Shown: positions 2,638 to 52,759, numbered from the stretch's first letter. The stretch: DNA of 64,000 bases from Porphyromonas levii DSM 23370 (GCF_000379925.1 NZ_KB904250.1:1-64000), one strand, 5' to 3'. The notes: generated by a model not told the origin, from the letters alone. Program-made: numbers and translations.

Positions 2638-2862
2638 ATAACAAAAAGTATAAAACGACTACTATTACTAGGAGCAACATCATTATTGTTTGCGTTGAAT
2701 TCAGGTGGGACACCCTCGACAGAAAACAACGTCATTAAAGTAGAGACATCATGTGGAGAGGAGACTTAGCTATTTATCGAAAAAGGGACTGAAATAGATC
2801 AAGTTCTTGAAGATGTCAAAGCAATAGAAGAGCTCCTTTGTGGTGAAGATAAAGTGCAGTAA
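2638..2862 (+). pseudogene. Small secreted Cys peptide, copy 1 (no start codon, in-frame stop)
   Basis: The frame opens at ATA 2638 (ITKSIKRLLLLGATSLLFAL, a signal-peptide-like start) and continues through VIKVETSCGEET. It then meets TAG at 2767-2769, reads on in the same frame as LFIEKGTEIDQVLEDV and LLCGEDKVQ, and ends at TAA 2862. The layout of a hydrophobic leader, linker, TSC, acidic stretch and final C-x-E-D resembles the intact peptide at 49056-49328. It also shares the promoter and a downstream GLPGLI gene with that copy. The lack of ATG plus an internal stop suggest decay. The family function is unknown. Confidence 0.5.
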
Positions 2863-3008
2863 CCTAGACCGTAATCTTATTGCGCTTGTGATGTATAGCT
2901 GAGTCACAGACTCTGCTTGTAAAGTAATTAGCCCCATCGTATTTGATTGTTTCAAAGATAAAAGATTCGATGGGACATTTATAGTAGCTTTAATCTCCAT
3001 ACATAAAT

Positions 3009-3875: not shown

Positions 3876-3887
3876 AATTAATTTTTC

Positions 3888-21262: not shown

Positions 21263-22924
21263 CTATCGGTACCTGTTTGTTATCTGTACATTCTTTTCCT
21301 TAAAGTAACCCTCCACGCACTCCACCTTGATGGTCTCCGCAGAATTGCTCTTGTTGGACTTGAAGTTGTAGGTGAGTTGTCTGTTATCAGAAATGCTTGT
21401 CACGATAACTTCATAGAAGGTCTTATCACCCTTTCGACCATAAGAGAACCCTTGGTTGCCTGATGGGTAGAAGTTCTCGGTATAGAATCTAAAGGTGATG
21501 GGCAAAAGCTCCTTCCTAAATTCCTCTGGAATCTTCAGGGTAAGGGTCAGAGGTGTATCCTGAGTTTTATTGATAGTTGTATACTCTGGTGTAACTGTCA
21601 AGTCAAACTGTGGTCTCACCTGTATACGAACTAAGCGCTTCAGCTCAGGGTTATCCTTGACCCCAATGATCAACTCTGACGTCAGACTACCACCGTTAGC
21701 TGGTTTCTCTTTAAGAGGCACCTTAATATCCCCATTATCGTTAGTAGGTTCTCCGCTAATTGAACCACTTTCTGAATTTGTCCACTTAAAAGTGAGCTTA
21801 GAATTATCAGTCGTATATGTATTATTATTAGGATAGAAATCTACATGGAAAGTCAATTCACGCTTGCCATCCACGACTGCGAAGAAAGTCTTGTCCCCTT
21901 TTACAACTAGCGTACCTGCACCATCGGAGAAGGTAGGGAAGCTTTGGATTTCCTCTGAGAGTGCCAAGTTATTAGCCGCTAGACCCTTTAATGCTTCTTC
22001 ACGAGATTTGTACCCCTTAGCACGTACATCATTGATCGTAACCTTATAAAAGTGGTTGCGGAGGATATCATACCTTACCTTATCGGTATTCACAAAGTCA
22101 ATCTTGTAATAGCACTCCTCAGGAGATAGCATTCCTTCACCTTTGTACGTGCCTTTGACAATTAGGCACGAAATCTCTTTTGCATCGGCATTCTTGCGCT
22201 CGTAACCGTAGTGATACTGGCCTGCATCAGCTTTAAGCCATTGACCATCTTTATCGTAATTTATTAGAGAAGCTCCCGCAGGCTCGGTAACCGCTCCCTC
22301 TGTAAATTCCTTCTTATCTGGGTCAAAGGGTGCGATAGAGCCCTTGTCGTAGGTGCGGTAGAGAGCGTAGGTGACGTCAGTCAGCTTGCTGGTAGCTTCA
22401 CCAGTAATCACTAACCTAAATTTCGCCATGTTACGTAGTACTTCTATAGTGCCTAGGTCAGAATATTTTTTAATTTCTTGATCATACTTCTTACGTCCCC
22501 ACATGGTCATTACATTACCATCTGAGGTGCCATCGATAGAGAAGAGCACATCGGATTCGTTTTTACCGATAAGACTGGTGACATCGTCGCCGAGAGACTT
22601 ATTGGCTACGAAGTGGATGATACAGCCATCAGGGGCTGGTGTCATCTTAGCCTCGTAGGTATAGGTCTTATTGTCAGTGGACTTGATGTTCTCAGCTTTG
22701 GCACGCTCGAGGAAGTGACCATCCTTATCGAAGACCCATAGTTCGAGTGTTTCGATCTTATTCTCATCGATACCTACAGCACGTGAGGTGGTGAAGTTGG
22801 GAACATCCACGCCAAAGCGGATAGTGACCTTCTCAGAGTCCTTAGGGGATAGAGCGGTATCGCGCATCGTACATGCTCCGAGCAGTAGTGCCGTTAGCAT
22901 GAATAGTAAACTTATCTTCTTCAT
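21263..22924 (-). CDS. Fimbrial accessory/tip lipoprotein, last gene of the operon
   Basis: The 553-aa protein has a lipoprotein signal (LTALLLGACTM, Cys about residue 18) and an N-terminal fimbrillin-like beta-sandwich (VTIRFGVDVPNF, IETLELWVFDKDGHFLERA). The middle carries LRNMAKFRLVI, and a long C-terminal region follows with Ig-like strands. The pattern matches accessory or tip subunits of type V fimbriae (Mfa/FimC-E type), which are lipidated, exported and proteolytically matured. I cannot assign which subunit it is. It is 28 bases after the preceding fimbrial gene and ends before a strong terminator. Confidence 0.7.
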   Translation of the reverse strand: MKKISLLFMLTALLLGACTMRDTALSPKDSEKVTIRFGVDVPNFTTSRAVGIDENKIETLELWVFDKDGHFLERAKAENIKSTDNKTYTYEAKMTPAPDGCIIHFVANKSLGDDVTSLIGKNESDVLFSIDGTSDGNVMTMWGRKKYDQEIKKYSDLGTIEVLRNMAKFRLVITGEATSKLTDVTYALYRTYDKGSIAPFDPDKKEFTEGAVTEPAGASLINYDKDGQWLKADAGQYHYGYERKNADAKEISCLIVKGTYKGEGMLSPEECYYKIDFVNTDKVRYDILRNHFYKVTINDVRAKGYKSREEALKGLAANNLALSEEIQSFPTFSDGAGTLVVKGDKTFFAVVDGKRELTFHVDFYPNNNTYTTDNSKLTFKWTNSESGSISGEPTNDNGDIKVPLKEKPANGGSLTSELIIGVKDNPELKRLVRIQVRPQFDLTVTPEYTTINKTQDTPLTLTLKIPEEFRKELLPITFRFYTENFYPSGNQGFSYGRKGDKTFYEVIVTSISDNRQLTYNFKSNKSNSAETIKVECVEGYFKEKNVQITNRYR

Positions 22925-22952
22925 AATCTTTACTTCTCTTATTCCGTCCTAC

Positions 22953-24917
22953 TTACTTAGTCACTGTATTATCCTTCACATCACGCACACAACGTACGTA
23001 TGCCCATTCCCATTGACTTCCTATTAACCACACTTTAGTTGTAGGTTTATCCATCTTTGTTGCTCCATTCTTATCATAAGCATCCCAGTAGTAATTACCG
23101 GTCATGATCTCGTTAACAACTCCACGGCTATCATGCTGTAACTTGTCAATTAGTTTTATTTCAGCCTCTGTAGGTAAGCGCCAATCGTCAAGCTCCTTGC
23201 CATCTCTTTTTTCCCAGTAATCTTTGCAATGCCTTTGTGCACTATTATAACTATGGATATTTGTTGCGCCAAGTTGAGAAGCTAATTCAAAGCATGGAGA
23301 AACCATATTGGCAGTTTCTGCTTCATTTTTAGTATCCCCGTAATCCAATGGAGGGAAACCTAGGATCATATCTACACCTAAAATATTATCTCCAGGTACC
23401 AGAATATTAATGCGATATATAGCTCTATTCTTAAGGTGAGATTCACCAGAGAAACTACCATCCCAATTATAAGAAGGCTTAGGTCTGAGTTTAGATGCCG
23501 TACCTGTGGTGTTGGTGATAAAGAGGCTTGGATATTGCTTTACAACGACATGCTCCGTCATTCCCTCTTTATTCTTAACATTGAACTTGATGGTCTTAGG
23601 AACAAAGTTAACTGGTAGAACAGAATTAACAATTATCTTATTGATGTCTGTGTCTACAGTCACCTTTGGGTACTGAGGATTTTCTTTATAAGAATAGCCT
23701 GTCCCTTTTTTTTTGTTAATAGGTTCGTTATGTTCATGCCCCGCAGCATCAGTATACTCGAAAGATGCCTGTAAATTTTCTATGGTGATATCAGAGGAGG
23801 ACTTGTAAGGGATATCGTAGGTGTCGACGTTGTTCATGGTGACGTGTTTCTCGGCAACTAGTAGGTACTTAGTAGCTGGCAAGTCGAACGCATCATCATG
23901 AGTTGTCCAATCTTTGATAACGAGTTTGCCTGTAATCTTTTGTGGCTCCTCTACGGTGAGACCGCCAAGGATCTCTATCTTTACCTTTACGTCGTAGAGG
24001 TAGTTGGACTTTAGCTCTTGCCCCTTTGCCTCTACTGGCACCTTGTAGTAGTACGCCTTAGCCTCTGTATTTGTAGAGTCGTTCTTCTTCAACTTAATCA
24101 TCAGGGTAAGGGTGGGGCGCTCCTTAGCATCCTTCTCCCACTTAGTGTAGTAGGAGTAGAAGTGTGCCGACTTGGTGTTCAGTTCGTTTACATTTATATA
24201 ATCTGATGCAAATAGAGCTGATCCAGGTACGTTCTCAGCCTTATCCATGTACCCTTGGTTACGGGCATTGCTTAGGTAAGCTTGTGCTTCACCTTCTTGG
24301 GTATAGCCGTCTACGTTTACAGTGAGGAGCGAAAGGCGTACCTTCGCAGCCACACGCTTAAGCTCTACTGTCCCCAGTTGCTTCCCGTCTGTAGTAGACA
24401 TATTGATGGTCTTAGTGACCGAGCCCACCATCACAAACTTAGCAGGCTTTTCTGTATTACTTACCTTAATAGACTCACTTACAACGATTGCCTTCAGTGC
24501 GTCTTCTGTAGCAGGCTTATCGCCAGTAAAGGTGTGATTCGCTACAACATAGATCTTAAACTCTGTCTTACCATCTATCCCAGCCATCTGCTCTTTAGGT
24601 ACAGGAATGAGATAGTTCTTGTTGATATCCTGAGTCAGACCCTTCTTTGACTGAGCCCATAAGAACTTACCCTCCTTATAGAATAGGACGGTGAAATCCT
24701 CTATCTTATTCTCGTTATAGGGGTCTTGCCCTGCTTCTGTCTTATCAGCGCGGAGGGCTGCTCTACTCTCGGCAATATCCTGAACGTTGATCCTTAGTGC
24801 TAGGGTGTTGTCGCCTAGCTCGGGACAATCCACTCCATTCTCTTTGACACATCCCTGCCCCAAGAGCATTAGTGCGACTAGGGTAAGAATGGAACTCAAT
24901 GTATATATCTTCTTCAT
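22953..24917 (-). CDS. Fimbrial lipoprotein with C-terminal adhesin-like domain
   Basis: The 654-aa protein has a lipoprotein signal (ALMLLGQGCVK) and an N-terminal fimbrillin-like domain (LALRINVQDIAESRAAL, DFTVLFYKEGKFLW), then ELKRVAAKVRLSL and further beta domains. The last 150 residues differ in character: SAQRHCKDYW, DDWRLPTEAEIKLI and EWAYVRCVRDV. The WRLPTEAE pattern recalls Fib_succ_major/DUF1566-type lectin-like folds. This suggests a tip adhesin, with the extra domain exposed at the end of the fimbria. The role is inferred from the domain and the operon. Confidence 0.7.
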   Translation of the reverse strand: MKKIYTLSSILTLVALMLLGQGCVKENGVDCPELGDNTLALRINVQDIAESRAALRADKTEAGQDPYNENKIEDFTVLFYKEGKFLWAQSKKGLTQDINKNYLIPVPKEQMAGIDGKTEFKIYVVANHTFTGDKPATEDALKAIVVSESIKVSNTEKPAKFVMVGSVTKTINMSTTDGKQLGTVELKRVAAKVRLSLLTVNVDGYTQEGEAQAYLSNARNQGYMDKAENVPGSALFASDYINVNELNTKSAHFYSYYTKWEKDAKERPTLTLMIKLKKNDSTNTEAKAYYYKVPVEAKGQELKSNYLYDVKVKIEILGGLTVEEPQKITGKLVIKDWTTHDDAFDLPATKYLLVAEKHVTMNNVDTYDIPYKSSSDITIENLQASFEYTDAAGHEHNEPINKKKGTGYSYKENPQYPKVTVDTDINKIIVNSVLPVNFVPKTIKFNVKNKEGMTEHVVVKQYPSLFITNTTGTASKLRPKPSYNWDGSFSGESHLKNRAIYRINILVPGDNILGVDMILGFPPLDYGDTKNEAETANMVSPCFELASQLGATNIHSYNSAQRHCKDYWEKRDGKELDDWRLPTEAEIKLIDKLQHDSRGVVNEIMTGNYYWDAYDKNGATKMDKPTTKVWLIGSQWEWAYVRCVRDVKDNTVTK

Positions 24918-24938
24918 AATGTTTTCCTCTCTAGCTCG

Positions 24939-26285
24939 TTAAGCATGTGGTTTCTGAGAAATCTTTATACGAGTCTTGCGATCTGATACTCCAGCACCAG
25001 AAAGGACTATTTCCTTACCATCTACAGTGAAGAATAGTTCTGTGGTACGTGTCTTAGTGGTATCAGGATCCTTGAGTGGTGTCACCACAACAGTATACTC
25101 AGTTTCATCGACCTTACCTTCAGCAACGATTGTATCGCCTTGCTTTATCTCCACCTTGAACTCTAGACCATTCGTTACTGTAGCCCTCCAAGTCTTACCT
25201 TCAGAAGCCTTAATCTTCACCTTGAAGGTAAGTGGCTTATATTTCGTAATTACGTTGTCAGTATTGACAATATTGGCATCAATGGACGTTGCCTTTGGTT
25301 CTAGGAAGTTCTTCTCTAGCTCTTCTACGTTCCAAGGGAGTACCTTGGTGCTGAGGAGGAGGGCAGAGAACTCACCTAGCTTGGTGATGGTACCCTGTAG
25401 CTTGTAGTGGTGGTTGCGCTCTAGGCAGTAGTGCTTTGTCGCCTCAGTTGCCTTGTCATCATTGATATAGGCGTGGTAAGTGGTCTCGATACCATTGTAA
25501 AGCGCGGTAACGGTTAGGCGTGGTGCTCTACTGGTAGAGTCCTGAGCACTACCTAGGTTCTCGTACACGTACAGTGTATTATCAGCGATATATGGAGTGA
25601 ACTCTGTAGCTTTATTAGTGAGCTTCACTTCCTCCTTCTTGGTATAAGTCCAAGAGTCGCTAAGTGCCCAACCGTCCTTAGGGAAGAGGGTGCTATGCTT
25701 AGGCAGGCGGTCGATAGAAGCACTGAGGATCTCCACCTCTGCCTCCTCGTCGGTAGCCTGCTTCAGGTCGAGGGTAATCTTCGCTACCACGCGAGTTAGT
25801 GTTACTGTAGCCTCGGTTTTGCCTTCAGCTTTAAGCTCGATATTCTTAGTATCACCCACCATGGTAAGTGGTGTAGTAAGCTTATCTTCTTTCTCTGGCA
25901 GCATTATCTTCATAAGGTCGGATACGAAGACCACTTTCTCAAGCTGGTCCGTCAGTTCGCTTGGCTCGTTTGCCACCACGTAGATATCCTTAGTGCCTAC
26001 ATGAGCTTCCATGGTGAAAGGGTTCTTGAAATCCTCTGTATCTGCTTTGAATAGCTTCTGTGCATCGATATTATTACCCTTTTGGTTAAAGACGAAGATA
26101 CGAACCGTCTTTAACTCCTCCTCCACTTTGTCAGCGAAGAGTGCACCAGCACGCATGGATACAGATGGAAGGGTGAGCTGTAGTTCAGCTACCTCTCCAT
26201 TAGGAGACTCCCCTCTATCCTTGCTACAGCTGAGCAGTACGCCCATCAGTAGCATTGTATATATTATACTCTTATATAGTTTCAT
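24939..26285 (-). CDS. Fimbrial minor subunit lipoprotein (Mfa/FimC-like)
   Basis: I chose ATG 26285 because MKLYKSIIYTMLLMGVLLSC is a textbook lipoprotein signal; the longer frame from 26363 adds 26 unlike residues. The 448-aa protein has VAELQLTLPSVSMR, LKTVRIFVFNQKG and LTRVVAKITLDL, then RNHHYKLQGTITKLG and a terminal domain. These are typical Mfa-like/fimbrillin accessory features. It lies 21 bases before the next gene of the operon and 34 bases after the anchor gene. Confidence 0.72.
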   Translation of the reverse strand: MKLYKSIIYTMLLMGVLLSCSKDRGESPNGEVAELQLTLPSVSMRAGALFADKVEEELKTVRIFVFNQKGNNIDAQKLFKADTEDFKNPFTMEAHVGTKDIYVVANEPSELTDQLEKVVFVSDLMKIMLPEKEDKLTTPLTMVGDTKNIELKAEGKTEATVTLTRVVAKITLDLKQATDEEAEVEILSASIDRLPKHSTLFPKDGWALSDSWTYTKKEEVKLTNKATEFTPYIADNTLYVYENLGSAQDSTSRAPRLTVTALYNGIETTYHAYINDDKATEATKHYCLERNHHYKLQGTITKLGEFSALLLSTKVLPWNVEELEKNFLEPKATSIDANIVNTDNVITKYKPLTFKVKIKASEGKTWRATVTNGLEFKVEIKQGDTIVAEGKVDETEYTVVVTPLKDPDTTKTRTTELFFTVDGKEIVLSGAGVSDRKTRIKISQKPHA

Positions 26286-26319
26286 AGTCTTTCTATATCT
26301 ATTGGAACCTCTACCACAA

Positions 26320-27270
26320 TTAGTACTGTACGAACTGGTGAACGATGTTCCAAGGTGTGACAACGACTGTGATGCTTACCTCGGCACTTCTGAAGTCGAT
26401 CAGCAAGTTGAGCATCTTCCCTACCACTGGCAAGATAGGTTTGCCTGTAGAGTCCTTAGTGAAGGAAAGAGCCTTATGATCATTGACCCAGAAATCCAAA
26501 CTGAATAACTTGCCGTCTAGAGAAGGATATACTCTAAATGGCGCTATACGATAATCCCCCATGTTATTCATCGTACCCGTTGGACGATAGATCACCAATT
26601 CACCACCCAGCTGATCCACCAAGGTATAAGTCTCTGGTGAAGTGCCGAAGAGTATCTTGGCTGCCTTTAGGTCTTTAGGGTCGAATGCTTTCTTAGGATA
26701 TCCATTACGCTTGAGCCAGCCCTCGTAGCCAATCACCGTGATATTGACAGAGGCGGTGCGCCTATAGATATCGATGACGCCGTCCTCATCCTTGAGGACA
26801 CTACCATACTTGATGGTGCGTACTAGTTTGCCTGAGAATAGGTCTTCAGGCGAATTTACGAGCTGCTCGGCAGCCCTTGTCCGATTAAGTGCTACTACGA
26901 GGTCGTCCATCTTCTTCACGCCCTCTAGGTTAGCTTTGTCTTGGTCCGATAGGTTACCCCAAGCCACGAAAGTGACATCCTTAAGGTTGAGACCTACCTT
27001 CTTGAAGTGTATTGGTGTACGAGCTTTTACCTGATCAGCACCCATCATCACGCGATCTATCAGATACCCCTTTTCATCGAATATGAATACGACAACGCTC
27101 TGTACATCACCATCCGCAGTGATATCGTTATTCTCCGAATCCAGAGCTCTTACCGTGATATCGAATGGAAGTGGACAGTCTGATAAATCTTCCTTGATGC
27201 AGCTCGTAGATATTAAAGCCGTCAATGTGACCATTGCGACTATTTTAATCCATTTAAATGCATTATTCAT
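26320..27270 (-). CDS. FimB/Mfa2-family fimbrial anchor subunit
   Basis: This 316-aa lipoprotein (TLTALISTSCIKEDLSDCP) matches the FimB/Mfa2 family. It has the conserved CP..FDITVRAL opening, VVVFIFDEKGYLIDR, and a VTPWNIVHQFVQY end. In Porphyromonas such proteins anchor the fimbria to the outer membrane and limit its length. It follows the major pilin gene, with a terminator-like hairpin between them, the expected order for the family. Confidence 0.82.
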   Translation of the reverse strand: MNNAFKWIKIVAMVTLTALISTSCIKEDLSDCPLPFDITVRALDSENNDITADGDVQSVVVFIFDEKGYLIDRVMMGADQVKARTPIHFKKVGLNLKDVTFVAWGNLSDQDKANLEGVKKMDDLVVALNRTRAAEQLVNSPEDLFSGKLVRTIKYGSVLKDEDGVIDIYRRTASVNITVIGYEGWLKRNGYPKKAFDPKDLKAAKILFGTSPETYTLVDQLGGELVIYRPTGTMNNMGDYRIAPFRVYPSLDGKLFSLDFWVNDHKALSFTKDSTGKPILPVVGKMLNLLIDFRSAEVSITVVVTPWNIVHQFVQY

Positions 27271-27331
27271 AATTCCTCTTTTCTAAAGTGTTAGTACCTA
27301 ATAGAGGCAAAATATACTTAAGGGAAAAAAT

Positions 27332-27386
27332 GGCTTGCGAGAGGGCTCCTATCCCTCAGTAGGCACGGGAGCACCTCCCTCTAGCC
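27332..27386 (-). terminator. Partial terminator after the major fimbrillin gene
   Basis: On the minus strand GGCT-A-GAGGG pairs with CCCTC-TCGCA-AGCC across a 32-base loop, and ATTTTTT follows. It lies about 50 bases after the major pilin stop. An attenuating terminator here would keep pilin mRNA above that of the anchor and tip genes. Confidence 0.55.
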
Positions 27387-27434
27387 AATCAATTAATAAT
27401 TACCTAAGGTGCGATGCACCCCTATTCTCGTGGA

Positions 27435-28619
27435 TTACCACTGAACATTCTGAGTAACAAGTACCCAAGGTGCCACAGTGATTGTAACATCCAAAGTTGC
27501 AGGCTCGTTGGTTGGATCCTCAGGCTGATTTGTACCAGGACCAGTGATATTCATAGAGATTTGATACTTGTGGTTGCGCTCAATCACATTTCTCTTCTGA
27601 TCTTTACCAGCACCTTCATACTTGTAATTAGCCTTCTCGAAGTTTACAAGCACTGGATAGTAGGTGTAACCGTTCTCGTCGCAGTAACCTGCAGCTTGAG
27701 CTGTCTTCAAAGCTTCTCCCTCTATTATCTTATCTGTTGACTGATCAATAAGAGGTGTCTTGATTGTAAGAATAGTTGGGTGCTTCTCATCGTTGTTCTC
27801 GAGGATATAAAAACCTGCAGCAGCGTAGTTGCTACCATCAAAATCTATTGATAATGACTTTTCTTCAGTATAAGTAAAACCAGCTTCTGGTGTATACTTA
27901 TCTTCTGTAACGCCGAAGTGTTGCTCACCGTAAACAAACTTAGTACCATGTGCAAGAGGGTTTCCAAAGATCTTAGATTCTTGTTTCACGATTAGTCCAA
28001 TGAGCTTCGTGTCTTTAGCAAGATCAATAGCATACTTAGCTGCAAAAGCATCGTTAAACTTGACATCCACCTTTGTGAGTTCCATGCCAGCATGTACGTG
28101 AGTAATCTCAAGAGCCTCTTCAGAGAGGACATTACCATCGCCAGTCTTACCATAATGGTTTTTACCCGCCTTGATATTGACAGAAGTAATATCAGACGTC
28201 ATCATGTGAAGCTTGTTCTCTGGATTCTGCTGAGCCTCATTGAGGGTCAACACCTTGTTCTGTAGCTCGGTAAGGCTTAGTCCTTCAAGCTTCTCAGTAC
28301 CAAAGTTTGCTACAACTACGAGTTTGCGAGGACCTGCTGTACACAGAATCTCAGTAATCTCTGTTGCACCTTCTCCAGCTGCCTTGTATGCCTCCTGAAC
28401 ATCACCGTTGTAGACCATCGCAGCAAGGGTGTAGATCTTCTTATCTGCATCACCTGCTCCTTGCTCATAAGCGTTAGCACGCATTGCAGCGCCCTGAACC
28501 CTTACGCTTACAGTTGCCTTTGCACCGTCTGCTGATGGTGCGTTGTTCTCCTTGTTACACCCTACGAGTGCAACCATTGCAAGGCTCATAAGCCCTGCCA
28601 TGAATAAACTCTTCTTCAT
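27435..28619 (-). CDS. Major fimbrial subunit (FimA/Mfa1-like type V pilin)
   Basis: The 394-aa prepilin has a lipoprotein signal (LAMVALVGCNKE, Cys about residue 21). The N-terminal domain has KATVSVRVQGAAMRAN, the Arg-containing site where Rgp-type proteases cut in type V pilins. The middle has VHAGMELTKVDVKF. Near the end are VIERNHKYQISMNI and a last strand VTITVAPWVLVTQNVQW, suited to donor-strand exchange. It is first of the subunit genes and has its own downstream hairpin, as expected for the most abundant protein. Confidence 0.85.
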   Translation of the reverse strand: MKKSLFMAGLMSLAMVALVGCNKENNAPSADGAKATVSVRVQGAAMRANAYEQGAGDADKKIYTLAAMVYNGDVQEAYKAAGEGATEITEILCTAGPRKLVVVANFGTEKLEGLSLTELQNKVLTLNEAQQNPENKLHMMTSDITSVNIKAGKNHYGKTGDGNVLSEEALEITHVHAGMELTKVDVKFNDAFAAKYAIDLAKDTKLIGLIVKQESKIFGNPLAHGTKFVYGEQHFGVTEDKYTPEAGFTYTEEKSLSIDFDGSNYAAAGFYILENNDEKHPTILTIKTPLIDQSTDKIIEGEALKTAQAAGYCDENGYTYYPVLVNFEKANYKYEGAGKDQKRNVIERNHKYQISMNITGPGTNQPEDPTNEPATLDVTITVAPWVLVTQNVQW

Positions 28620-28726
28620 ACGCTTTTTTGTTTTGATAAATAGTTGAAAATAGTTGTCTTGTTCCGGGCGACCCGATTAGCTCAAGCCTACCCAGATATT
28701 TATTATTTACTACTTTTTTCTCTCCT

Positions 28727-30178
28727 TTAGAAGTTATCCGCTAGGAAGTGGTTCAGTTCATCGAGGTTGTGTTGTGCCTCTGCCGAACCGCTCTGTGCCG
28801 CCTTCTCTAGATAGCTCTTAGCCTCCTCGTACTGCTCATTGTAGGCATACGCCACACCGAGGATGTTCCATAGCTTCTTATTCTCCTTGAACTGCTCCAG
28901 TAGGCGTACTGCCTGAGCGTAGCGCCCAGCCTTGAAGTCCATAATTGCTGCATTGGTAGCAGGCTCCACCGCCGTTGGGAACGCCTTAGCCGCGGTCACC
29001 CAAGTCTGGTACTGTTCATTGCTGTCCTCTGGGTAGCTCTTTGCCACGAGGTTGATCTCAGCAAGGCTTAGGTGGGTAGGATGTGTCTTGATTACCTCAC
29101 GAGCCTCCTCAAGCTCAAATCCCCTTACAATGAAAGAGAAAGTAATCACTGTACGGCGTAGTGGGGGATATACCTCCCTCAATAGGTAGGCATAGGTGTT
29201 GCCACCATTGAGCTGTTGGAGTGCTGGCGTGCGCTCAGCCACTGGGCGCTCATCGATAATCTTGAGGACACTCTCCTTATCCGCCATAGAGCTCTTTGCC
29301 ACAGCGTCTCTTAGACCATCCCAGTCGGCACCCATAGCCACCGACTTGTAGCTGTTTTTGAAGCGTGGGTAGCGGTTGACAAGTTGGCGTGAGATACTCT
29401 CCACACGCTTTTCTGATAGAGTCTGGTTGAACTCCGCACCACCCTCAGGTGAAGCATAACCGGTGAGCTTCAGTCCATCTACCTTTAGATTATTATTGGT
29501 GGTGAGCTCCTTTAGCTTGTCCTCCACTCGCTTCAGTTCAGCCTTGTTATTACCGAGTGTAGGCACGAAGTCACTCTTAGCTACATTGAAGACGATGAGT
29601 GCCGTGATGCTCTCCTCCCTTCTCTTGGTCTCCTCGCCCTGTGGCACCATCATATTATAGGTGTACTTAGGCTGGTATAGGGGCACTAGTGCATTAGGTG
29701 TAAGCTTAAGCACCTCATCGCCGAGGTCACAATCGGCACACCCATACGCCTTAGCGTATAGGGTAAGCGCAGCATCCTTGAGCCACTGTTCAAAAGGTGC
29801 CTCAGAAGTGTAGTGGTAGGTCTGTCCCTTAGTCCTAGTCTTCACGACATCGGCAGTGCGTCCCTTACGGGTGAGCATGATAGCTCTTGTGCGACCAGAT
29901 ATAATAAAAGAGGGGAGCTCCACCCTTTGTGCAGAGTTGTTTGCCTCCAATACTGGAGTAACTTCTAGCATCACATTACGATTGAGTGCAGGCATCTCAC
30001 TGAGGTCTACCGTAAAGTCTACAGCCACCTTCTTGCCTTGCTTCTGTGCCACATGAGGAGTTGTCGCCTTTATGCCCTGCAGTCGATGGGGCCCATCCTG
30101 AGCCTTTGCACTCAGAGCTCCGCCCATGGTGCCAATTACTAAGAATAGTAATGATGAAATTATAGTGTAATATCTCAT
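28727..30178 (-). CDS. DUF3868 and OmpA-like fimbrial assembly protein
   Basis: I chose ATG 30178, which gives a clean signal peptide (SLLFLVIGTMGGALSAKA) and 483 aa. Residues about 25-180 match DUF3868. An OmpA-like peptidoglycan-binding domain follows (LKLTGYASPEGGAEFNQTLS, KRVESISRQL), and a C-terminal tetratricopeptide-like part (LLEQFKENKKLWNILGVAYA, AKSYLEKAAQSGSAEAQ). DUF3868 proteins accompany Bacteroidales fimbrial loci and may assist assembly or anchor the base to the cell wall. It sits between the DUF3575 gene and the pilin gene. Confidence 0.8.
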   Translation of the reverse strand: MRYYTIISSLLFLVIGTMGGALSAKAQDGPHRLQGIKATTPHVAQKQGKKVAVDFTVDLSEMPALNRNVMLEVTPVLEANNSAQRVELPSFIISGRTRAIMLTRKGRTADVVKTRTKGQTYHYTSEAPFEQWLKDAALTLYAKAYGCADCDLGDEVLKLTPNALVPLYQPKYTYNMMVPQGEETKRREESITALIVFNVAKSDFVPTLGNNKAELKRVEDKLKELTTNNNLKVDGLKLTGYASPEGGAEFNQTLSEKRVESISRQLVNRYPRFKNSYKSVAMGADWDGLRDAVAKSSMADKESVLKIIDERPVAERTPALQQLNGGNTYAYLLREVYPPLRRTVITFSFIVRGFELEEAREVIKTHPTHLSLAEINLVAKSYPEDSNEQYQTWVTAAKAFPTAVEPATNAAIMDFKAGRYAQAVRLLEQFKENKKLWNILGVAYAYNEQYEEAKSYLEKAAQSGSAEAQHNLDELNHFLADNF

Positions 30179-30210
30179 GGTTGTTAGTTCTCTTAGATGT
30201 GATACATTCA

Positions 30211-30786
30211 TTAGAAAAGATAGATCAAAGAAATTGTAGCTTTTGTAGGACCAAAGTAATGCTTTGTATTCTTCTCAATTTCCTTACCACATTTCTCACA
30301 GTTGTACTTGGCATAGTCAAAGAATAGATAGCCACCACTGAGAGAGGCTTCTAGGTTCCAGTGTTTTCCTAAAACGAACTCGTAGCCATAGGTCACGCCA
30401 CCTCCGTAAACCCACCCCTGATAGCGGTAATCCTTCAGACCTTTGAGCTTGTCAATAGGTAGATTGATGTTAGCAACATTGAAGAACCCAGCTAGACCGT
30501 GTACACCAAAGAAATGACCGTTGAATGCTTCGCAGGTGTAGTAGCGAACCTCAGGAGCCACCATCCAGTGCTTCCACTTCATGCTAGTCTCCTTATTCAT
30601 CACAAAAGGATTGTATCCGCCACTAACATCTACCGTCCATTTGTCAGCCATCTTCACCTCAATACCTAAGTTGGGGGTAGCTGTTCCGAGGTAGGGGATG
30701 TTCGTTTTTACTCCAACACTCTGAGCTAGAGCACCGACGCAAGACCCCATCAGGAGAATAATAAGAGTTATAAACCTCTGCTTCAT
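30211..30786 (-). CDS. DUF3575 outer-membrane protein, first gene of the fimbrial operon
   Basis: The 191-aa protein starts at ATG 30786 with a signal peptide (TLIILLMGSCVGALAQ). It then shows the DUF3575 opening VGVKTNIPYLGTATPNLGIE, repeated beta strands (WTVDVSGGYNPFV, GWVYGGGVTYGYEF) and a terminal Phe. This suggests a small beta-barrel. A CEKC motif near residue 165 is notable. Genes of this family regularly head fimbrial operons with a DUF3868 partner. The long leader upstream is described separately. Confidence 0.8.
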   Translation of the reverse strand: MKQRFITLIILLMGSCVGALAQSVGVKTNIPYLGTATPNLGIEVKMADKWTVDVSGGYNPFVMNKETSMKWKHWMVAPEVRYYTCEAFNGHFFGVHGLAGFFNVANINLPIDKLKGLKDYRYQGWVYGGGVTYGYEFVLGKHWNLEASLSGGYLFFDYAKYNCEKCGKEIEKNTKHYFGPTKATISLIYLF

Positions 30787-30902
30787 AATTTTATATCTTA
30801 GTAAGTACAATGTATTTCAAATCAAATAGGCGAAAAGGAGAACAATTATTAGAGAACAACTCCTGACAATAGGTATTCCCTTGTCTGTCCAGATTGATGA
30901 GC

Positions 30903-46382: not shown

Positions 46383-46835
46383 ATGATGAGCGACCAACGC
46401 CCTACTGTATTCGATCCCATACGTCAAAAGCGGGTTGCACTCACCCCTGAAGAGCGAGTGCGACAAGCCGTAGTCCACTTTCTACTCACCCAGCTGGGCT
46501 ATCCTGCCACGCATCTCGCCAATGAATACACCATTACCGTTGGGAAACTCTCTAGGCGGTGCGATACCATCGTATTCGACGAAGCACTGCAGCCACTCAT
46601 GGTTCTCGAATATAAGGCACCACATATCCCTCTGACCCAAACCGTAATCCAGCAAGCGTGGCAGTACAATAGCGCCCTCGGGGTTCCCTATATCTGTCTC
46701 TCTAATGGCACCACCACGGTCGTGTACCGCATCGGCTATGATGGACTCCAAACCACCCAGCTCCCCTCCATCCCTACCTACCAAGAGCTCTGTATCAGAC
46801 ACGAAAGAGATAGCAGTGACGAATCCCATCCGTAG
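46383..46835 (+). CDS. Type I restriction enzyme R protein N-terminal domain protein
   Basis: The 150-aa protein matches the stand-alone HSDR_N_2 family. It has EERVRQAVVHFLLTQLGYP, RRCDTIVFD and LMVLEYKAPHIPLT, the Asp and E-x-K of a PD-(D/E)XK nuclease core. Such proteins occur singly beside holA in many Bacteroidota, without methylase or specificity subunits. They are therefore probably not restriction enzymes. No partner is present here. Confidence 0.82.
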   Translation: MMSDQRPTVFDPIRQKRVALTPEERVRQAVVHFLLTQLGYPATHLANEYTITVGKLSRRCDTIVFDEALQPLMVLEYKAPHIPLTQTVIQQAWQYNSALGVPYICLSNGTTTVVYRIGYDGLQTTQLPSIPTYQELCIRHERDSSDESHP

Positions 46836-46875
46836 AGCCGTCTCTGCTACGATATAGGAGAGGTAAATTTATCTG

Positions 46876-47170
46876 TGTATAGCCGATTTGTAGTTGGCTG
46901 GAAGCCTCCAATACGCTTTCAGCCAACAACTGCACAGAACTTGTAAAGGAAATGTATAGAGCAGTATGGTTACCCAGAGATTATCAAATCAGACAAGCCG
47001 TACAATACACAAGCAAAAAGTGGGTAGAGCTATTAGAGGAAAAGGGTATAAAGATAAGTATGGATGGAAAAGGTCGCCGGATAACACCCGGATAGAGCGC
47101 TTCTGGAGAAGCATCAAACAGGAATGGGGAGTAGTATATACATCCCACATTTCATTAACAAATTGCCTTT
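46876..47170 (+). pseudogene. IS3-type transposase remnant, several frameshifts
   Basis: Pieces of an IS3-family integrase core can be read in different frames: VYSRFVVGW, then SNTLSANNCTELVKE, then QYGYPEIIKSDKP, then KKWVELLEEKGIKISMDGKGR, then DNTRIERFWRSIKQEW. These are consecutive parts of the DDE domain, including a D and the E of IERFWRSIKQE. No terminal repeats are evident. It marks a past insertion beside the peptide cassettes. Confidence 0.7.
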
Positions 47171-47196: not shown

Positions 47197-47228
47197 TTTG
47201 GACACTATAGCTATTATCGCTACATTTG
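47197..47228 (+). promoter_or_regulatory. Promoter of the second peptide-GLPGLI cassette
   Basis: TTTG at 47197-47200, a 20-base spacer and TACATTTG at 47221-47228 form a perfect promoter. Directly after it AAAGAGT (47232-47238) pairs with ACTCTTT (47251-47257), a short hairpin near the RNA 5' end. Confidence 0.75.
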
Positions 47229-47287
47229 CGAAAAGAGTATGAGAGGTTTTACTCTTTGCTATGTTTAATTTTTTAACTACAACTACG

Positions 47288-47549
47288 ATGAAAAAGATTA
47301 TTTTATCCGCTGTGGCACTTTTCTGCCTTCCTTTTTTTCGCTTTAGCAGATAGCTCTACCGACGCTACAGCTACTCCGTCTACATCTAGCAATCCTCCAC
47401 AGGAAGAACAATCCGAACTTGAGGGCGATGATGATGTCCAAATGCACTGTGTGTGGACATCTTGCGCTGGCACCTTTTGTGACGACACCTTAGCTGATCC
47501 AGAGTTTCTTGACATCTACATGAAGACGTTTGACAATTGCTATGAATAA
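47288..47549 (+). pseudogene. Small secreted Cys peptide, copy 2 (frameshifted at a T7 tract)
   Basis: From ATG 47288 the leader MKKIILSAVALFCLP is almost identical to the intact copy. A run of seven T at 47332-47338 then throws the frame, giving a stop after FFRFSR. With six T the frame would continue as PFFALADSST, DDDVQMHCVWTSCAGTFC, and PEFLDIYMKTFDNCYE to the stop at 47549. Apart from the one extra base the gene looks functional, so it may be switchable by slippage. The mature part would have four cysteines. Confidence 0.7.
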
Positions 47550-47790
47550 ATTGCCAGGATGGAACCGGGATGGAAAGATTTCTTCTTTTGTCTCATAGCA
47601 TTTGTAGCTTAAGCACTTGGCTATTCCTAAACAATATTTGCTTTACATAACAATATTAAGAGGAAGGAGCAATTTGTTACAGGAGAGATCCTCTGAGATC
47701 TCTCCGTTTTTAAGGTTCTCACATGATAAGACAAAGTTATTTCTAATTTATCAAAACTTTACAATTATATTTACTTTAGTACGGGAAAAT

Positions 47791-47993
47791 TATATTGTCT
47801 TTAGTGGTATTTTCTGTCTACCTCTTTTTGCTTTAACCGATGAACATTGACGTAATTGCGACTCGACTATAATTGCTCCAAATAAGTTTCAAACAAAGAG
47901 AAAACTAAAGAGGCAAGATAGTAGTGATAACACCCAAACGCAATGTGTGGGTACTTCGTATTGGCATATCATGCCGCAAAGATTTCGCTAATA
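47791..47993 (+). pseudogene. Small secreted Cys peptide, copy 3 (highly degenerate)
   Basis: GIFCLPLFALTDE, from about 47806, copies the end of the family signal peptide and then stops at 47850. Further on, TQTQCVGTSYWH followed in another frame by ISCRKDFANI echoes the CVWTSC..FC region of copy 2. It lies directly before the GLPGLI gene at 48069, exactly where a peptide gene is expected. Boundaries are approximate. Confidence 0.45.
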
Positions 47994-48068
47994 TAAGTTT
48001 TGTCAGAGCATTTTGGGATGTATTCTATATTTGTAAATATATACTTATTGACACGTAAATGTAAAAAT

Positions 48069-48884
48069 ATGAACAAATACAAATTATTTATTTTCATTGT
48101 ACTTATAGTAGTTGGGCTACCACTTAATGCTCAATCCTATAGAGTAATGTATGAAGAAGAAGAGATTAATTTATTTGATGAAGAGGTCATTAGAGATCTC
48201 TTTATACTCGAGATTTCCAAAAGCGGTATAAGCTCATTCCAAAGCTATTATACTCTTCAAGCAGATTCTATTGGAAGAGCGTGTCGAGATGCAGGCATGA
48301 GTTTGCAAGAAAGAATAGCACAAATGCGGACTGTTCCACCTGGTTCAAGGAATATATTATTTTATAACCCCATGGAAATGAAGTATACCGAACTGGATTA
48401 TGGATATTATTATTTCAAGACAGTCGAGGATATAAAGGCACCTGACTATGCCTTTGAAGATTCCACTAAATTGGTCGTTGGATATACTTCAGAAATGGCA
48501 ACAGCGCACCTATATGGTAGAGATTGGGTGATCTATTATACCACTGAAATTCCTCTCCCTTATGGACCATGGAAAATCAATGGGTTGCCAGGGCTGGTAA
48601 CAGAGGCATACTCCATAGATGGCGCCTATAAATTTACGCTGACGGGCTTTGAGGTCTTGGATGAAGATGTAAATATTGAAATCCCTCTAAAGATGCTCAA
48701 TCAGCCAGTTCAAGAAGTAAGCCGAAATGAGCTGATGTGGATTAGGAAACAAATCGCCTGTAAAGACCCTAGACCCATTATCAAGAAATACTCCAAGAAC
48801 TATGACATGAGCGGTATGTACCACAACAAGATAGATAGGATGTATAGAGAGCTATCCAAGCGCTACCAATACATAGAACAATAA
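48069..48884 (+). CDS. GLPGLI family secreted protein, tandem copy A
   Basis: I chose ATG 48069 (271 aa), which starts a normal signal peptide (LFIFIVLIVVGLPLNAQ). The earlier TTG at 48000 adds 23 unlikely residues. The family signature is GLPGLV at about residues 172-177, after YTTEIPLPYGPWKI. It has the same length as the copy at 49333-50148 and is clearly its paralogue, with roughly three quarters of positions alike by eye. Family function is unknown. It may use TATATTTG at 48026-48033 as a -7 element. Confidence 0.9.
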   Translation: MNKYKLFIFIVLIVVGLPLNAQSYRVMYEEEEINLFDEEVIRDLFILEISKSGISSFQSYYTLQADSIGRACRDAGMSLQERIAQMRTVPPGSRNILFYNPMEMKYTELDYGYYYFKTVEDIKAPDYAFEDSTKLVVGYTSEMATAHLYGRDWVIYYTTEIPLPYGPWKINGLPGLVTEAYSIDGAYKFTLTGFEVLDEDVNIEIPLKMLNQPVQEVSRNELMWIRKQIACKDPRPIIKKYSKNYDMSGMYHNKIDRMYRELSKRYQYIEQ

Positions 48885-48962
48885 TTTAATATAGAACAGA
48901 CACATTATTCAAATATTACTCACAAAACAGCGCATTTTATTACTAAATAACATCAAAATATT

Positions 48963-48994
48963 TTTGGATGTTATTACGATTCTCATTACGTTTG
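48963..48994 (+). promoter_or_regulatory. Promoter of the third peptide-GLPGLI-barrel cassette
   Basis: TTTG at 48963-48966, a 20-base spacer and TACGTTTG at 48987-48994 match the consensus, with the same geometry as the promoter at 47197-47228. Confidence 0.75.
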
Positions 48995-48996
48995 CA

Positions 48997-49041
48997 AAAG
49001 TAAAACATGAGGTTTTTATACCTCTTTGTATGTTTTACTTT
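48997..49041 (+). other. 5' leader hairpin of the third cassette
   Basis: AAAGTAAAACAT (48997-49008) pairs perfectly with ATGTTTTACTTT (49030-49041). Inside, GAGGT (49009-49013) pairs with ACCTC (49020-49024). It begins three bases after the -7 element, so it would form at or near the very start of the RNA, 14 bases before the peptide start codon. It may stabilise the mRNA or control translation. Confidence 0.7.
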
Positions 49042-49055
49042 AAGTTTATTTTATC

Positions 49056-49328
49056 ATGAAAAAGATTATCTTATCCGCGGTGGCGCTATTCTGTCTCCCG
49101 CTTTTCTCCTTGGCTGATGAACCTGCCAATGTTATCACAACGACCTCTACTCCTACTCCACCTCAGACGATAGAAGTAGGTTCAGAGACAGAGGATCAAC
49201 AAAATGTTCAAATGCACTGTGTATTTGCAACATGTACTGGTACCGTTTGTTCTGCAAGGTTTTCTGATCCTGAAGTCGCCAATGACTTCATAGAGAAGAA
49301 TGACCATTGCTACGAAGATTACAAATAG
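49056..49328 (+). CDS. Small secreted Cys peptide, intact copy 4
   Basis: This 90-aa protein has a Sec signal peptide (MKKIILSAVALFCLPLFSLA), a Thr/Pro-rich linker (NVITTTSTPTPPQT) and a mature end with four cysteines: MHCVFATCTGTVC, then NDHCYEDYK. I recognise no named family, although the layout recalls small secreted peptides of Bacteroidota such as NVEALA. It is the only intact member among four in the window. The GLPGLI gene starts 4 bases after its stop, so the two are co-transcribed. Confidence 0.75.
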   Translation: MKKIILSAVALFCLPLFSLADEPANVITTTSTPTPPQTIEVGSETEDQQNVQMHCVFATCTGTVCSARFSDPEVANDFIEKNDHCYEDYK

Positions 49329-49332
49329 CATC

Positions 49333-50148
49333 ATGAAAAGACATATCATGGTTATCCTCTTTGCTTTCGTAGTGATTGCACTACCGCTTAGGGCACAGTC
49401 CTATAGGGCAATGTATGAAGAAGAGGAGGTCAATTTGTTTGATGAAGAGGTCATTAGAGACCTCTTCATACTTAATATTTCCACAAATAGTAACAGCTCT
49501 TTTCAGAGCTATTATACGGTTCAACGGGACTCAATAAGAGTTGCTGCTATAGCTGCTGGATTGAGTTCACAAGAAGTTGTTGCACAGATGCGGACTGTTC
49601 CCCCTGGTTCTAAGAATAGGTTGTACTATAACCCCGTGGAAATGAAGTATACCGAACTAGACTACAACGTATTTTACTTCAAAACTGTAGAGGATATAAA
49701 AGAGGTAAACTACACCTTTGGAGACTCTACTAAATTGGTTGCTGGGTATGCTTCAGAAATGGCAACAGCGCACCTATACGGCAGAGATTGGATAATCTAT
49801 TACACTACCGAAATCCCTCTATCATATGGTCCATGGAAGCTCAATGGCTTGCCAGGGCTGGTAACAGAGGCATACTCCATAGATGGCGCCTATAAATTTA
49901 CGCTGAAGGGCTTTGAGGTATTAGATCAGGAGGTAGATGTTGAAATCCCTCTAAAGATGCTCAATCAACCAGTTCAAGAAGTAAGCCGAGAGGAGCTGAT
50001 GTGGATTAGGAAACTAAATGCCTGTGGGGATCCCAGACCTATTTTCAAGAAATACGATGAGCACTATGACTTAAGTAATATGTACCACGACAAGATAGAT
50101 CGAAGGTATAGAAAGCTATCCAAGCGCTACCAATATATAGAGCAATAA
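49333..50148 (+). CDS. GLPGLI family secreted protein, tandem copy B
   Basis: I chose ATG 49333 (271 aa) because a signal peptide begins there (MVILFAFVVIALPLRAQ); the frame further upstream lies in the peptide gene. The signature YGPWKLNGLPGLVTEAYS is kept. It differs from copy A mainly in residues about 50-80 and 125-130. It stands between the intact peptide gene (4 bases upstream) and the barrel gene (4 bases downstream), the complete form of the cassette. Confidence 0.92.
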   Translation: MKRHIMVILFAFVVIALPLRAQSYRAMYEEEEVNLFDEEVIRDLFILNISTNSNSSFQSYYTVQRDSIRVAAIAAGLSSQEVVAQMRTVPPGSKNRLYYNPVEMKYTELDYNVFYFKTVEDIKEVNYTFGDSTKLVAGYASEMATAHLYGRDWIIYYTTEIPLSYGPWKLNGLPGLVTEAYSIDGAYKFTLKGFEVLDQEVDVEIPLKMLNQPVQEVSREELMWIRKLNACGDPRPIFKKYDEHYDLSNMYHDKIDRRYRKLSKRYQYIEQ

Positions 50149-50152
50149 TCGA

Positions 50153-52759
50153 ATGCGTAAATACTTGACCCTATTATTTACCTTACTCTGCTTTTTACTC
50201 TCTGAGTCAAAATCGATTGCTCAGACAGTGATAGAGGGAGAGGTTTTGGAGGGAAATGGAGCCAAAGTGGATGGGGCTATGCTCTTCCTTATAGATCCCG
50301 ACACGAATAGGTCGATTAGCACCGCTCAGAGTGATGAAGACGGTCGTTTCACCTTTAAGAGTAAAAGAACAATAGTAGAGGGGAAGAGCCTAGTGGTGAG
50401 GGGATCGCTACTAGGCTACAAACCCTTGAAAGTTACTATCCAATACCAGAGCGGGACAACGCTAAGGTTGGAGATGGAGGCAACCACATTTCAATTGAGA
50501 GAAGTACAGATCAAAGCACCTGCCATCAGAGAGGAGGGCGATACGATAGTATATCGCACCTCTGCATTTGCCCAAAAGCAGGATCTGACACTATCGCAAG
50601 TGATAGAGCGCATGCCTGGCTTGGAGGTCGTAGGAGGGCAAATCAAATACGAGGGTAAGGGCATCAATAAGTTTTACATAGAGGAGATGGATTTACTGGG
50701 GAGACGGTACGCCATCGCCAGCAATAGCCTACGCCCTGATGATGTGGCTGCCGTGGAGGTTTACCGCAATCACGAACCAATACGTATGCTGGAGACGCAG
50801 TCGCTCTCGGATAGAGCAGCACTCAATATCAAACTCACGGAGAAAGCAAAAGGCCGGTGGCTCGCATGGGTTTCGGCAGGCGTAGGGGCTAGCCCATTGC
50901 TCTATGACCTCAATGCCCGAGTGATGAGGTTTAACTCTACCTCACAAGGGATCTATCTCATCAAAGCCAATGACACAGGCAAGGATATGGCTGCTGAGCT
51001 CCGTGCACACGAGCAATCGACAAGCAGGAAGATGACTTTTTCTCTAAGTGATTATACTTCGCCCGACTTCTATAGCAGTATGGGAGAGTCGCTCCAAGGC
51101 TCTCCTATTGGCAATCGACAAAGATTTAACCACTCCTACGTATTCTCTGGTAATCAGCTACTGAAGCTAGGCAATTATCAATTCCTCCGCATCAATGCCA
51201 TCTATAGTGACGAACGCTTCAGCTCCTCCAAGCAAGAGACGATAGGCTACGCTCTACCCGATGGTAATCGGTACACGCTCGAGAGTGAACAGAAGTATCG
51301 ATTACGCGAACGCAAAATGGTGCTAGAGGGGGACTATGAATACAATGGTGATGCCTCCTTCTTTAACAACAAGACCAAGGTAGAGCACCAATCTCGCCAC
51401 AGCCAAGACATTATTAATCAAGACAATACCCCCTACCAACAAGATCTATCTCTACCCTACACGAAGGTGGAAAATAGTACGGAGTACCTCTTTAGGGCGG
51501 GTGAAACCTTGGTAAAACTGAGTAATATAGCGAAGTACCTATCTCGAAATCAATCGATAACTATTACTCTACCTCGTAGCCAAAGTATCAAGAGCAAGCT
51601 CTTGGACAATAGCCTTACCATTGGAGCTAATTGGAGGTGGGGCGAGCACCAACTCGACAATACGCTCCAGTGGGATATACAGTACCACAATATCGAAGTA
51701 GAGAGCTCATGGTTGGATGATAACTCTGCTACGCCCTCAAAGTATCTATCCAATAGTATAGGCTGGAGACCACAGTACAATTGGAAGAGCAATAACTGGC
51801 ATATAACGGCTGAACTGCCTATCACCTATTACCTATACAGATATCCTCAGGCACATGAGAGCTTTGCAAAGTCAGACTTCTATCTCAGAGGTAGTCGATA
51901 CTGGGACAATAACCTCAAAGTGAATGCCTCCTATAGCTTTTACCATAATCTCTTGGGAGCGGCGAGCCAATTCCCTGGGCTTAAAGTCATGGACTCGCGG
52001 AGACTGACCGAAAAGCTCCCAAGACCTTACCAAGGCAATACCCACGTAGCCACAGTGAACCTATCCTATTCGGTGCCGATAAGTGGCACTGCGATTACTG
52101 CGGGCAGCAACTTCTCCAAGAATAAAAGGCTCTACACCTCCTCTAGCTCACTACAAGATGGCTTTATTATCTTCAGATCTATTGAGCGTCCTTCATTATC
52201 CACCAATTGGGGAGCCAACCTCCGTGTAGCCCAGACTTTTTGGCAAGGCAAGATAGACGCTGCTATTAGAGGCTCATACAGTCGCAATTGGTCAGACATG
52301 TTGGTCCAAGAGCAAATAACAAGTCTAATCTCAGACAGCTATACTAGTGGGCTAGACTTATCATTCCGCTTCACCCCAGACATCAATTTGGACTACTCTG
52401 GATCAATAGTGGGAAGTAACACCAATAGTCAAGGCGGGAGAGTAGAGACACATGCTAGATTACTTAGCCAAATACACAAGGGGAGGCTACTGGTATGGCT
52501 TTCGGACAATTGGTCTGCCACAGCAGCTGCAGAATACCACAATACCCTACAAGGGAATACTAAAGCTAATGCGGAGGCTACCTTCCTCGACCTAGGTGTA
52601 AAGTATCAAAGCAAGAAGATAAAAATCGACCTACTCCTTTCCAATATCACAAATCAAAAAAATTATGAGGTCATCACCATTTCCGAACCTCACACCTATA
52701 GGACAATTACGCCCCTCAGACCCCTCGAAATACTGCTTACCTTTACACTTTTGAGATAA
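50153..52759 (+). CDS. CarboxypepD_reg-like / TonB-receptor-like outer-membrane barrel protein
   Basis: The 868-aa protein has a signal peptide (LTLLFTLLCFLLSESKSIAQ) and a regulatory beta-sandwich (IEGEVLEGNGAKVDGAMLFL, residues about 25-110). A plug-like segment follows (VIERMPGLEVVGGQIKY, FYIEEMDLLGRRY) and then a barrel ending ILLTFTLLR. It resembles 3888-6434 in order of domains and in the FYIE.DLLG motif. It is coupled to the GLPGLI gene upstream. Transport of the peptide, or insertion of the GLPGLI protein, is conceivable but unproven. Confidence 0.86.
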   Translation: MRKYLTLLFTLLCFLLSESKSIAQTVIEGEVLEGNGAKVDGAMLFLIDPDTNRSISTAQSDEDGRFTFKSKRTIVEGKSLVVRGSLLGYKPLKVTIQYQSGTTLRLEMEATTFQLREVQIKAPAIREEGDTIVYRTSAFAQKQDLTLSQVIERMPGLEVVGGQIKYEGKGINKFYIEEMDLLGRRYAIASNSLRPDDVAAVEVYRNHEPIRMLETQSLSDRAALNIKLTEKAKGRWLAWVSAGVGASPLLYDLNARVMRFNSTSQGIYLIKANDTGKDMAAELRAHEQSTSRKMTFSLSDYTSPDFYSSMGESLQGSPIGNRQRFNHSYVFSGNQLLKLGNYQFLRINAIYSDERFSSSKQETIGYALPDGNRYTLESEQKYRLRERKMVLEGDYEYNGDASFFNNKTKVEHQSRHSQDIINQDNTPYQQDLSLPYTKVENSTEYLFRAGETLVKLSNIAKYLSRNQSITITLPRSQSIKSKLLDNSLTIGANWRWGEHQLDNTLQWDIQYHNIEVESSWLDDNSATPSKYLSNSIGWRPQYNWKSNNWHITAELPITYYLYRYPQAHESFAKSDFYLRGSRYWDNNLKVNASYSFYHNLLGAASQFPGLKVMDSRRLTEKLPRPYQGNTHVATVNLSYSVPISGTAITAGSNFSKNKRLYTSSSSLQDGFIIFRSIERPSLSTNWGANLRVAQTFWQGKIDAAIRGSYSRNWSDMLVQEQITSLISDSYTSGLDLSFRFTPDINLDYSGSIVGSNTNSQGGRVETHARLLSQIHKGRLLVWLSDNWSATAAAEYHNTLQGNTKANAEATFLDLGVKYQSKKIKIDLLLSNITNQKNYEVITISEPHTYRTITPLRPLEILLTFTLLR

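Follow-up and report, generated by a model that had tools for sequence, protein, structure and literature searches.

A repeated peptide-GLPGLI cassette ending in a barrel gene in Porphyromonas levii, an instance of a recurrent pairing in the Bacteroidota

Organization of the cassette

The DNA analysed here is a stretch of 64,000 nucleotides from Porphyromonas levii DSM 23370 (NZ_KB904250.1:1-64000), hereafter the window, which encodes at positions 47197-52759 a forward-strand cassette of small cysteine-containing peptide genes, GLPGLI family genes (TIGR01200) and a terminal gene for a TonB-dependent-transporter-like barrel. From its 5' end, the cassette consists of peptide copy 2 (47288-47549), a relic of peptide copy 3 retaining part of the signal and traces of the core (about 47785-47958), GLPGLI A (48069-48884; the listed open reading frame (ORF) start at 48000 is an early TTG), an intact peptide copy 4 (49056-49328), GLPGLI B (49333-50148) and the barrel (50153-52759). 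Gaps of 4 bases separate copy 4 from GLPGLI B and GLPGLI B from the barrel, and these three genes may be co-transcribed. A repeated peptide-GLPGLI unit ending in a barrel had been proposed in a first-pass annotation, and each of its parts was recovered by direct reading.

Copy 4 encodes 90 amino acids, comprising a Sec-type signal, a variable linker and a core with four cysteines, and is preceded by a Bacteroidetes-type -7 promoter box (TACGTTTG, 48987-48994), in keeping with its earlier description as an intact gene with its own promoter. The corresponding box of copy 2 (TACATTTG) lies at 47221-47228, and in copies 1, 2 and 4 the -7 box TACNTTTG is found 66-69 bases before the start codon, or the position of the lost start. 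A 23-base pattern from the start of the signal occurs twice in the window, at two peptide starts, against zero occurrences expected by chance. A strong hairpin (about 48997-49041; z -3.1 relative to mononucleotide shuffles) lies where the copy 4 transcript is expected to begin, in its 5' untranslated region; copies 1 and 2 have weaker hairpins 3' of their -7 boxes.

The other copies have decayed to different extents, as had been annotated. The frame of copy 2 is broken by a run of seven T residues within the signal, with the remainder open downstream, including the four-cysteine core that reads VQMHCVWTSCAGTFC...DNCYE (full core, VQMHCVWTSCAGTFCDDTLADPEFLDIYMKTFDNCYE). Copy 3 is recognizable as a relic from its match to the peptide profile (E 8.5e-4) and from a local alignment with copy 2 that scored above 500 of 500 dinucleotide shuffles. 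Copies 2 and 4 are identical at 16 of 36 core residues. The window peptide, which has a Sec-type signal and no double-glycine leader, had no significant Pfam or NCBIfam match, and a plasmid search gave no match.

A second unit (2641-6434, forward strand) encodes a GLPGLI protein (3009-3875; TIGR01200, E 4e-47) and a barrel (3888-6434) downstream of copy 1 (2641-2862), a peptide of a different, TSCGK-type family that is broken by the absence of an ATG and an in-frame TAG (2767-2769). Upstream of this unit, a small acetyltransferase-like gene (1932-2209) is split across two reading frames and adjoins a small ferredoxin-like ORF.

Relatives and coding constraint

Orthologous cassettes were identified in Porphyromonas somerae (locus L047, also numbered L126) and P. 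macacae (L112, also L125), the latter of which the search places in another genus. A single-sequence scan of genome contigs for relatives returned no match; an alignment scan recovered P. macacae and P. somerae as the only close relatives, and among 198 genomes of the order the four-cysteine peptide scored convincingly only in the present genome in addition to these two. The P. macacae locus is a single peptide-GLPGLI-barrel unit whose peptide core has kept all four cysteines. In P. somerae, the order of peptide, GLPGLI, 5' trace of a peptide, GLPGLI and barrel repeats the layout of the window, which suggests that the duplication of the cassette is old or has occurred repeatedly.

Peptide frames without codon constraint had been named by the first-pass annotation as a finding that would count against its proposal; this outcome was not observed, since 23 of the 33 differences between the cores of copy 2 and P. 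somerae fall at third codon positions. Across the first 21 codons, the proportions of synonymous and nonsynonymous differences (pS and pN) were 0.88 and 0.04, respectively. This third-position bias, together with the recurrence of the core in P. macacae with its four cysteines, indicates from comparative sequence evidence that the peptide core has been translated and selected, its codons being strongly constrained.

The GLPGLI A and B proteins of the window are 75% identical to each other and 62-65% identical to the orthologue GLPGLI A' (pairing supported at 95 in the Shimodaira-Hasegawa-like approximate likelihood ratio test). The pair thus looks, at the sequence level, homogenised or recently duplicated; gene conversion or a later duplication of the GLPGLI gene would explain this closeness. 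The earlier view of a diversifying locus holds in that peptide copies have been born and are decaying, but the core itself is conserved across species and is not hypervariable.

Predicted structures of the GLPGLI proteins and the barrel

The GLPGLI proteins of the cassette and of the second unit all exceeded the curated TIGR01200 cut-off of 50 bits (GLPGLI A, 108.9; GLPGLI B, 114.7; second unit, 160.8), whilst for Porph_ging (PF09697; cut-off 25 bits) A and B fell below the threshold (18.3 and 22.9 bits) and the second-unit protein above it (30.9 bits). GLPGLI B, which carries a signal peptide, was modelled with a mean predicted local distance difference test score (pLDDT) of 93.8 and a predicted template modelling score of 0.88. 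Its closest structural match was the N-terminal domain of PNGase F-II (Z 15.8), followed by the half-barrels of LolA, RseB, VioE and EPDR1 (Z about 8-10), with Z of 9.1 and 9.6 for the LolA proteins of P. gingivalis and P. aeruginosa, respectively. GLPGLI B is therefore confidently predicted to be a LolA-type half-barrel. A search for literature on the PNGF-II bowl domain found none, and in the portions of the literature available GLPGLI genes are mentioned in lists of regulated genes, with no role assigned there.

Several GLPGLI variants were also observed. A cysteine that is near-invariant in the family (GYxCxKA) is absent from those GLPGLI proteins that are partners of four-cysteine peptides, which read GYASEMA, GYTSEMA and GYFSNAA. 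Double GLPGLI proteins, each encoded by a single open frame of about 580 codons that matches TIGR01200 twice, are present at L018 (G000:C96) and L039 (G006:C2).

The barrel (50153-52759) models as a TonB-dependent transporter, with a plug within a large beta-barrel (pLDDT 86.5) and an N-terminal CarboxypepD_reg domain resembling that of SusC. Foldseek matches were to plugged TonB-dependent transporters (Fiu, PhuR and FhuA; E 1e-16). Signalling of the FecA type was considered and rejected, no sigma or anti-sigma gene being present among the listed ORFs adjoining the cassette.

Recurrence of peptide-GLPGLI linkage

The genome encodes 21 TIGR01200 genes, and at most of its GLPGLI loci (L013-L026) the GLPGLI gene is preceded by a short ORF that contains cysteine and carries either a Sec signal or a double-glycine leader. 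Five peptide families were distinguished: F1, Sec peptides of the TSCGK...C type; F2, the four-cysteine Sec peptides of window copies 2-4; F3, precursors (TIGR04149) of ribosomally synthesized and post-translationally modified peptides (RiPPs) of the radical S-adenosylmethionine (SAM) type; F4, the Sec peptides of L021 and L091; and F5, other double-glycine peptides. The GLPGLI partner is thus common to several peptide classes that are unrelated to one another.

The strongest evidence for linkage is the converse test, in which 38 genomes of the family were searched with a profile of F1. Of 13 matches, 12 were closely followed by a GLPGLI gene on the same strand; five of these 12 were outside the seed of the profile. 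The remaining match was weak and internal to a 676-codon frame. A strict classifier applied within the family called a peptide at 15 of 91 non-tandem GLPGLI genes, against 1 of 264 control genes and, on the reverse strand, 1 of 91. This count is a lower bound, as the classifier misses the double-glycine peptides of L013, L016, L017 and L034, though a few of the positives (L049, L088) may be false. In a phylum-wide set of 37 loci obtained by scanning GTDB species, including Flavobacterium, Sphingobacterium and Chitinophagaceae, peptides were called at 9 of 52 GLPGLI genes, 0 of 88 control genes and 0 of 52 reverse strands (Fisher p 8e-5). Chance ORFs were rejected as an explanation on the basis of the classifier controls and the codon constraint of the core.

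When the five peptide families are mapped onto a tree of 112 GLPGLI proteins, 5 changes are required, close to the minimum of 4 and against a mean of 14.8 for shuffled labels. Peptide family co-segregates with GLPGLI clade, and the pairing is specific. No description of this pairing was found in the literature searched; a survey of Bacteroidales RiPPs does not contain TonB in its text and is not among the literature naming GLPGLI. The proposal of an undescribed system thus stands insofar as the cassette is real, co-oriented and repeatedly duplicated, but it is not the single local oddity that had been supposed, being instead an instance of a phylum-wide pairing.

RiPP precursors of the TIGR04149 family adjoin GLPGLI genes in the present genome and in two other families, with 4 of the 9 TIGR04149 matches among 80 genomes of the order lying beside a GLPGLI gene. 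L017 of this genome carries, in order, genes for the precursor, GLPGLI, a radical SAM maturase (TIGR04148, E 2.5e-129), a pseudo-radical-SAM protein (TIGR04150, E 4.7e-58) and a barrel that is truncated where the contig ends. The neighbours at L103 resemble those of L017 by sequence likeness alone and include an ORF for a C39-type exporter. Precursors were also matched at L016 (E 9.5e-8) and, in another family of the order, at L118 (E 1.9e-8; barrel, TIGR04149 peptide, GLPGLI, GLPGLI), with no maturase seen at either. Another locus outside the family, L117, carries a GLPGLI array with peptide relics, in addition to a reverse-strand frame of 326 amino acids (L117:12181-13161) in which a TIGR04149 leader and cysteine core are in frame with GLPGLI, through either fusion or a lost stop codon. 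At L033, a VKOR-type oxidoreductase gene (3536-4267) directly precedes GLPGLI and barrel genes, and a C39-peptidase-like ORF follows the barrel.

Peptides and partners have decayed unequally. Clear lesions are present in seven of 19 F1 and F2 peptides (copies 1, 2 and 3, L055, L104 and two from P. somerae). A further two are doubtful: L096 has no second cysteine, and L112 has lost one base near its start but has a possible inner start. Amongst the GLPGLI partners, 1 of 18 is broken (L020). Counting the doubtful cases, 9 of 19 peptides against 1 of 18 partners gives a Fisher p of 0.008, for cases that are not independent.

Neighbouring features of the window

A decayed insertion sequence (IS) fragment with an integrase-core remnant (about 46874-47125, forward strand) adjoins the cassette, which bears out the IS relic noted earlier. 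It is one of several decayed copies: repeats of 81-82% identity are present at other places in the genome, and several of these lie at the ends of contigs. The piece of PF00665 (rve) within it is a weak match (E 0.017). Copies occur at the ends of contigs C43, C83, C96, C98 and C108 of G000, and C43, C96 and C98 also carry GLPGLI loci. The IS relic and a DNA polymerase III delta gene flank a gene (46383-46835) for an orphan protein of 150 amino acids with an HSDR_N_2 domain (E 1.9e-31). Further upstream, a reverse-strand run of lipoprotein-like and fimbrillin-like genes with an OmpA-like protein (21263-30810) is probably a fimbrial locus of the Mfa/Fim type.

Possible roles of the cassette

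The suggestion that exported peptides have the GLPGLI protein and the barrel as their specific partners is supported by the F1 linkage, the classifier controls and the parallel distribution of peptide families and GLPGLI clades. We propose that the peptide may be a cognate extracellular ligand that is imported by the barrel and handed to a GLPGLI carrier, a reading to which we assign a probability of about 0.42. The cell would export a small cysteine-stabilised peptide, through Sec in the present cassette and through a double-glycine ATP-binding cassette (ABC) exporter at related loci; the co-encoded TonB-dependent barrel would recognise and import it, alone or with something bound, and GLPGLI, as a periplasmic half-barrel, would take it over behind the barrel. 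Duplication would act on the peptide-GLPGLI pair, with peptide genes often lost and receptor and carrier kept, and many genomes would thus hold receptors without a peptide of their own, comparable to receptors for foreign siderophores.

Two arguments favour uptake of a cognate, partly shared ligand. As double-glycine peptides have their own exporters at some loci, GLPGLI and the barrel are most simply placed on a return path. In addition, a receptor fits better than an exporter, since most barrels have no adjoining peptide (76 of 91 GLPGLI genes are without a classifier peptide) and the partners outlast the peptides. Several observations weigh against uptake. The classifier, being heuristic, detects peptides at no more than roughly one in six GLPGLI genes; the lesion counts are few and phylogenetically non-independent, with L096 and L112 ambiguous; and, as a TonB box, the region ahead of the plug offers a conserved LxEVxV stretch and nothing more. 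Furthermore, the cassette encodes no inner-membrane importer, and a Sec-type signal takes the peptide only to the periplasm, leaving its exit unexplained.

An export role gains from the fact that Sec-type peptides require an outer-membrane step. GLPGLI would then be a periplasmic chaperone, for which a LolA-type fold is suited, delivering to the barrel a peptide exported through Sec or an ABC system, for release or display outside; Bacteroidales RiPP clusters have been reported with an exporter and an outer-membrane protein and without a membrane-fusion protein (PMC10352776). The barrel, however, carries a complete TonB-dependent plug. Plugged TonB-dependent barrels have a fold that is generally known from importers. 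Most GLPGLI-barrel pairs also have no peptide to export, for which reason we rank export second, and the partners outlive the peptides; on balance we regard it as unlikely.

Orphan immunity could likewise leave a partner behind after loss of its peptide, and the double-glycine leaders, VKOR and C39-type exporters of related loci recall bacteroidetocins (PMC6671954), such that the peptide might be an antibacterial one with the barrel as receptor or decoy and GLPGLI as periplasmic immunity protein. Yet bacteroidetocin producers are self-sensitive and have no immunity protein (PMC6671954), a receptor within the producer's own cassette would be unusual, and the core is conserved across species, making a bacteriocin with self-protection improbable to a similar degree. 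An ordinary neighbourhood, with unrelated secreted proteins or regulatory leaders standing by chance before GLPGLI genes, would suit the minority of GLPGLI genes that have a small gene (15/91) and the many decayed copies, but is strongly disfavoured by the converse linkage (12/13), the controls (1/264 and 0/88), the curated RiPP families, the co-segregation and the codon constraint.

Extended beyond the present cassette, uptake of cognate peptides leads to the more tentative suggestion of a so far undescribed trafficking system in the Bacteroidota, made up of GLPGLI proteins and their barrels. Its TonB-dependent barrel and LolA-type periplasmic carrier would be dedicated to small cysteine-rich exported peptides, which some genomes would make themselves and others, having lost the peptide gene, would capture. 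For the numerous Bacteroidota GLPGLI genes of no known function, the clade-specific pairing with peptide and barrel offers a first testable role, and a handle on peptide ligands, radical SAM products and receptors in Bacteroidota of the mouth, the gut and the environment. Should the barrels import the peptides of others as well, this would imply peptide exchange or piracy in such communities.

Comparison with known systems

The half-barrel fold predicted for GLPGLI B is common to LolA, LolB, RseB and the N-terminal bowl domain of PNGase F-II, from which it differs in sequence (7-13% identity) and in being encoded beside a peptide and a barrel; the modelled likeness to LolA would not imply a role in lipoprotein sorting, as the fold alone gives no function. 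With SusC-type and other TonB-dependent transporters, the window barrel shares the N-terminal CarboxypepD_reg domain, the plug and the large barrel, but it has no SusD partner; its partner is instead GLPGLI, joined at some loci by a cognate peptide.

GG-samocin clusters (TIGR04148/TIGR04149/TIGR04150) also specify an exported cysteine peptide and contain GLPGLI genes and sometimes a barrel, whereas the window peptide is of Sec type, without a double-glycine leader or an adjoining maturase. Bacteroidetocins, which together with methanobactin re-uptake come closest as precedents, are small secreted four-cysteine peptides, and genes for a thiol oxidoreductase and a C39-type exporter are found at loci related to that of the window (PMC6671954). 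They have a double-glycine leader and no reported barrel or GLPGLI partner; the window peptide is instead of Sec type with another cysteine pattern, and its cassette contains no double-glycine leader, thiol oxidoreductase or C39 transporter.

Methanobactin operons differ in that their peptide (MbnA) is unrelated in sequence to that of the window, where the partner is a LolA-type GLPGLI and no gene for an MbnB/MbnC-type maturase was found from the IS relic to the barrel. Secreted methanobactin is reported to be re-internalised by a TonB-dependent transporter (PMC9601215). In these operons, as in the cassette of P. levii, a ribosomal cysteine peptide is encoded together with a TonB-dependent transporter (MbnT in the former).

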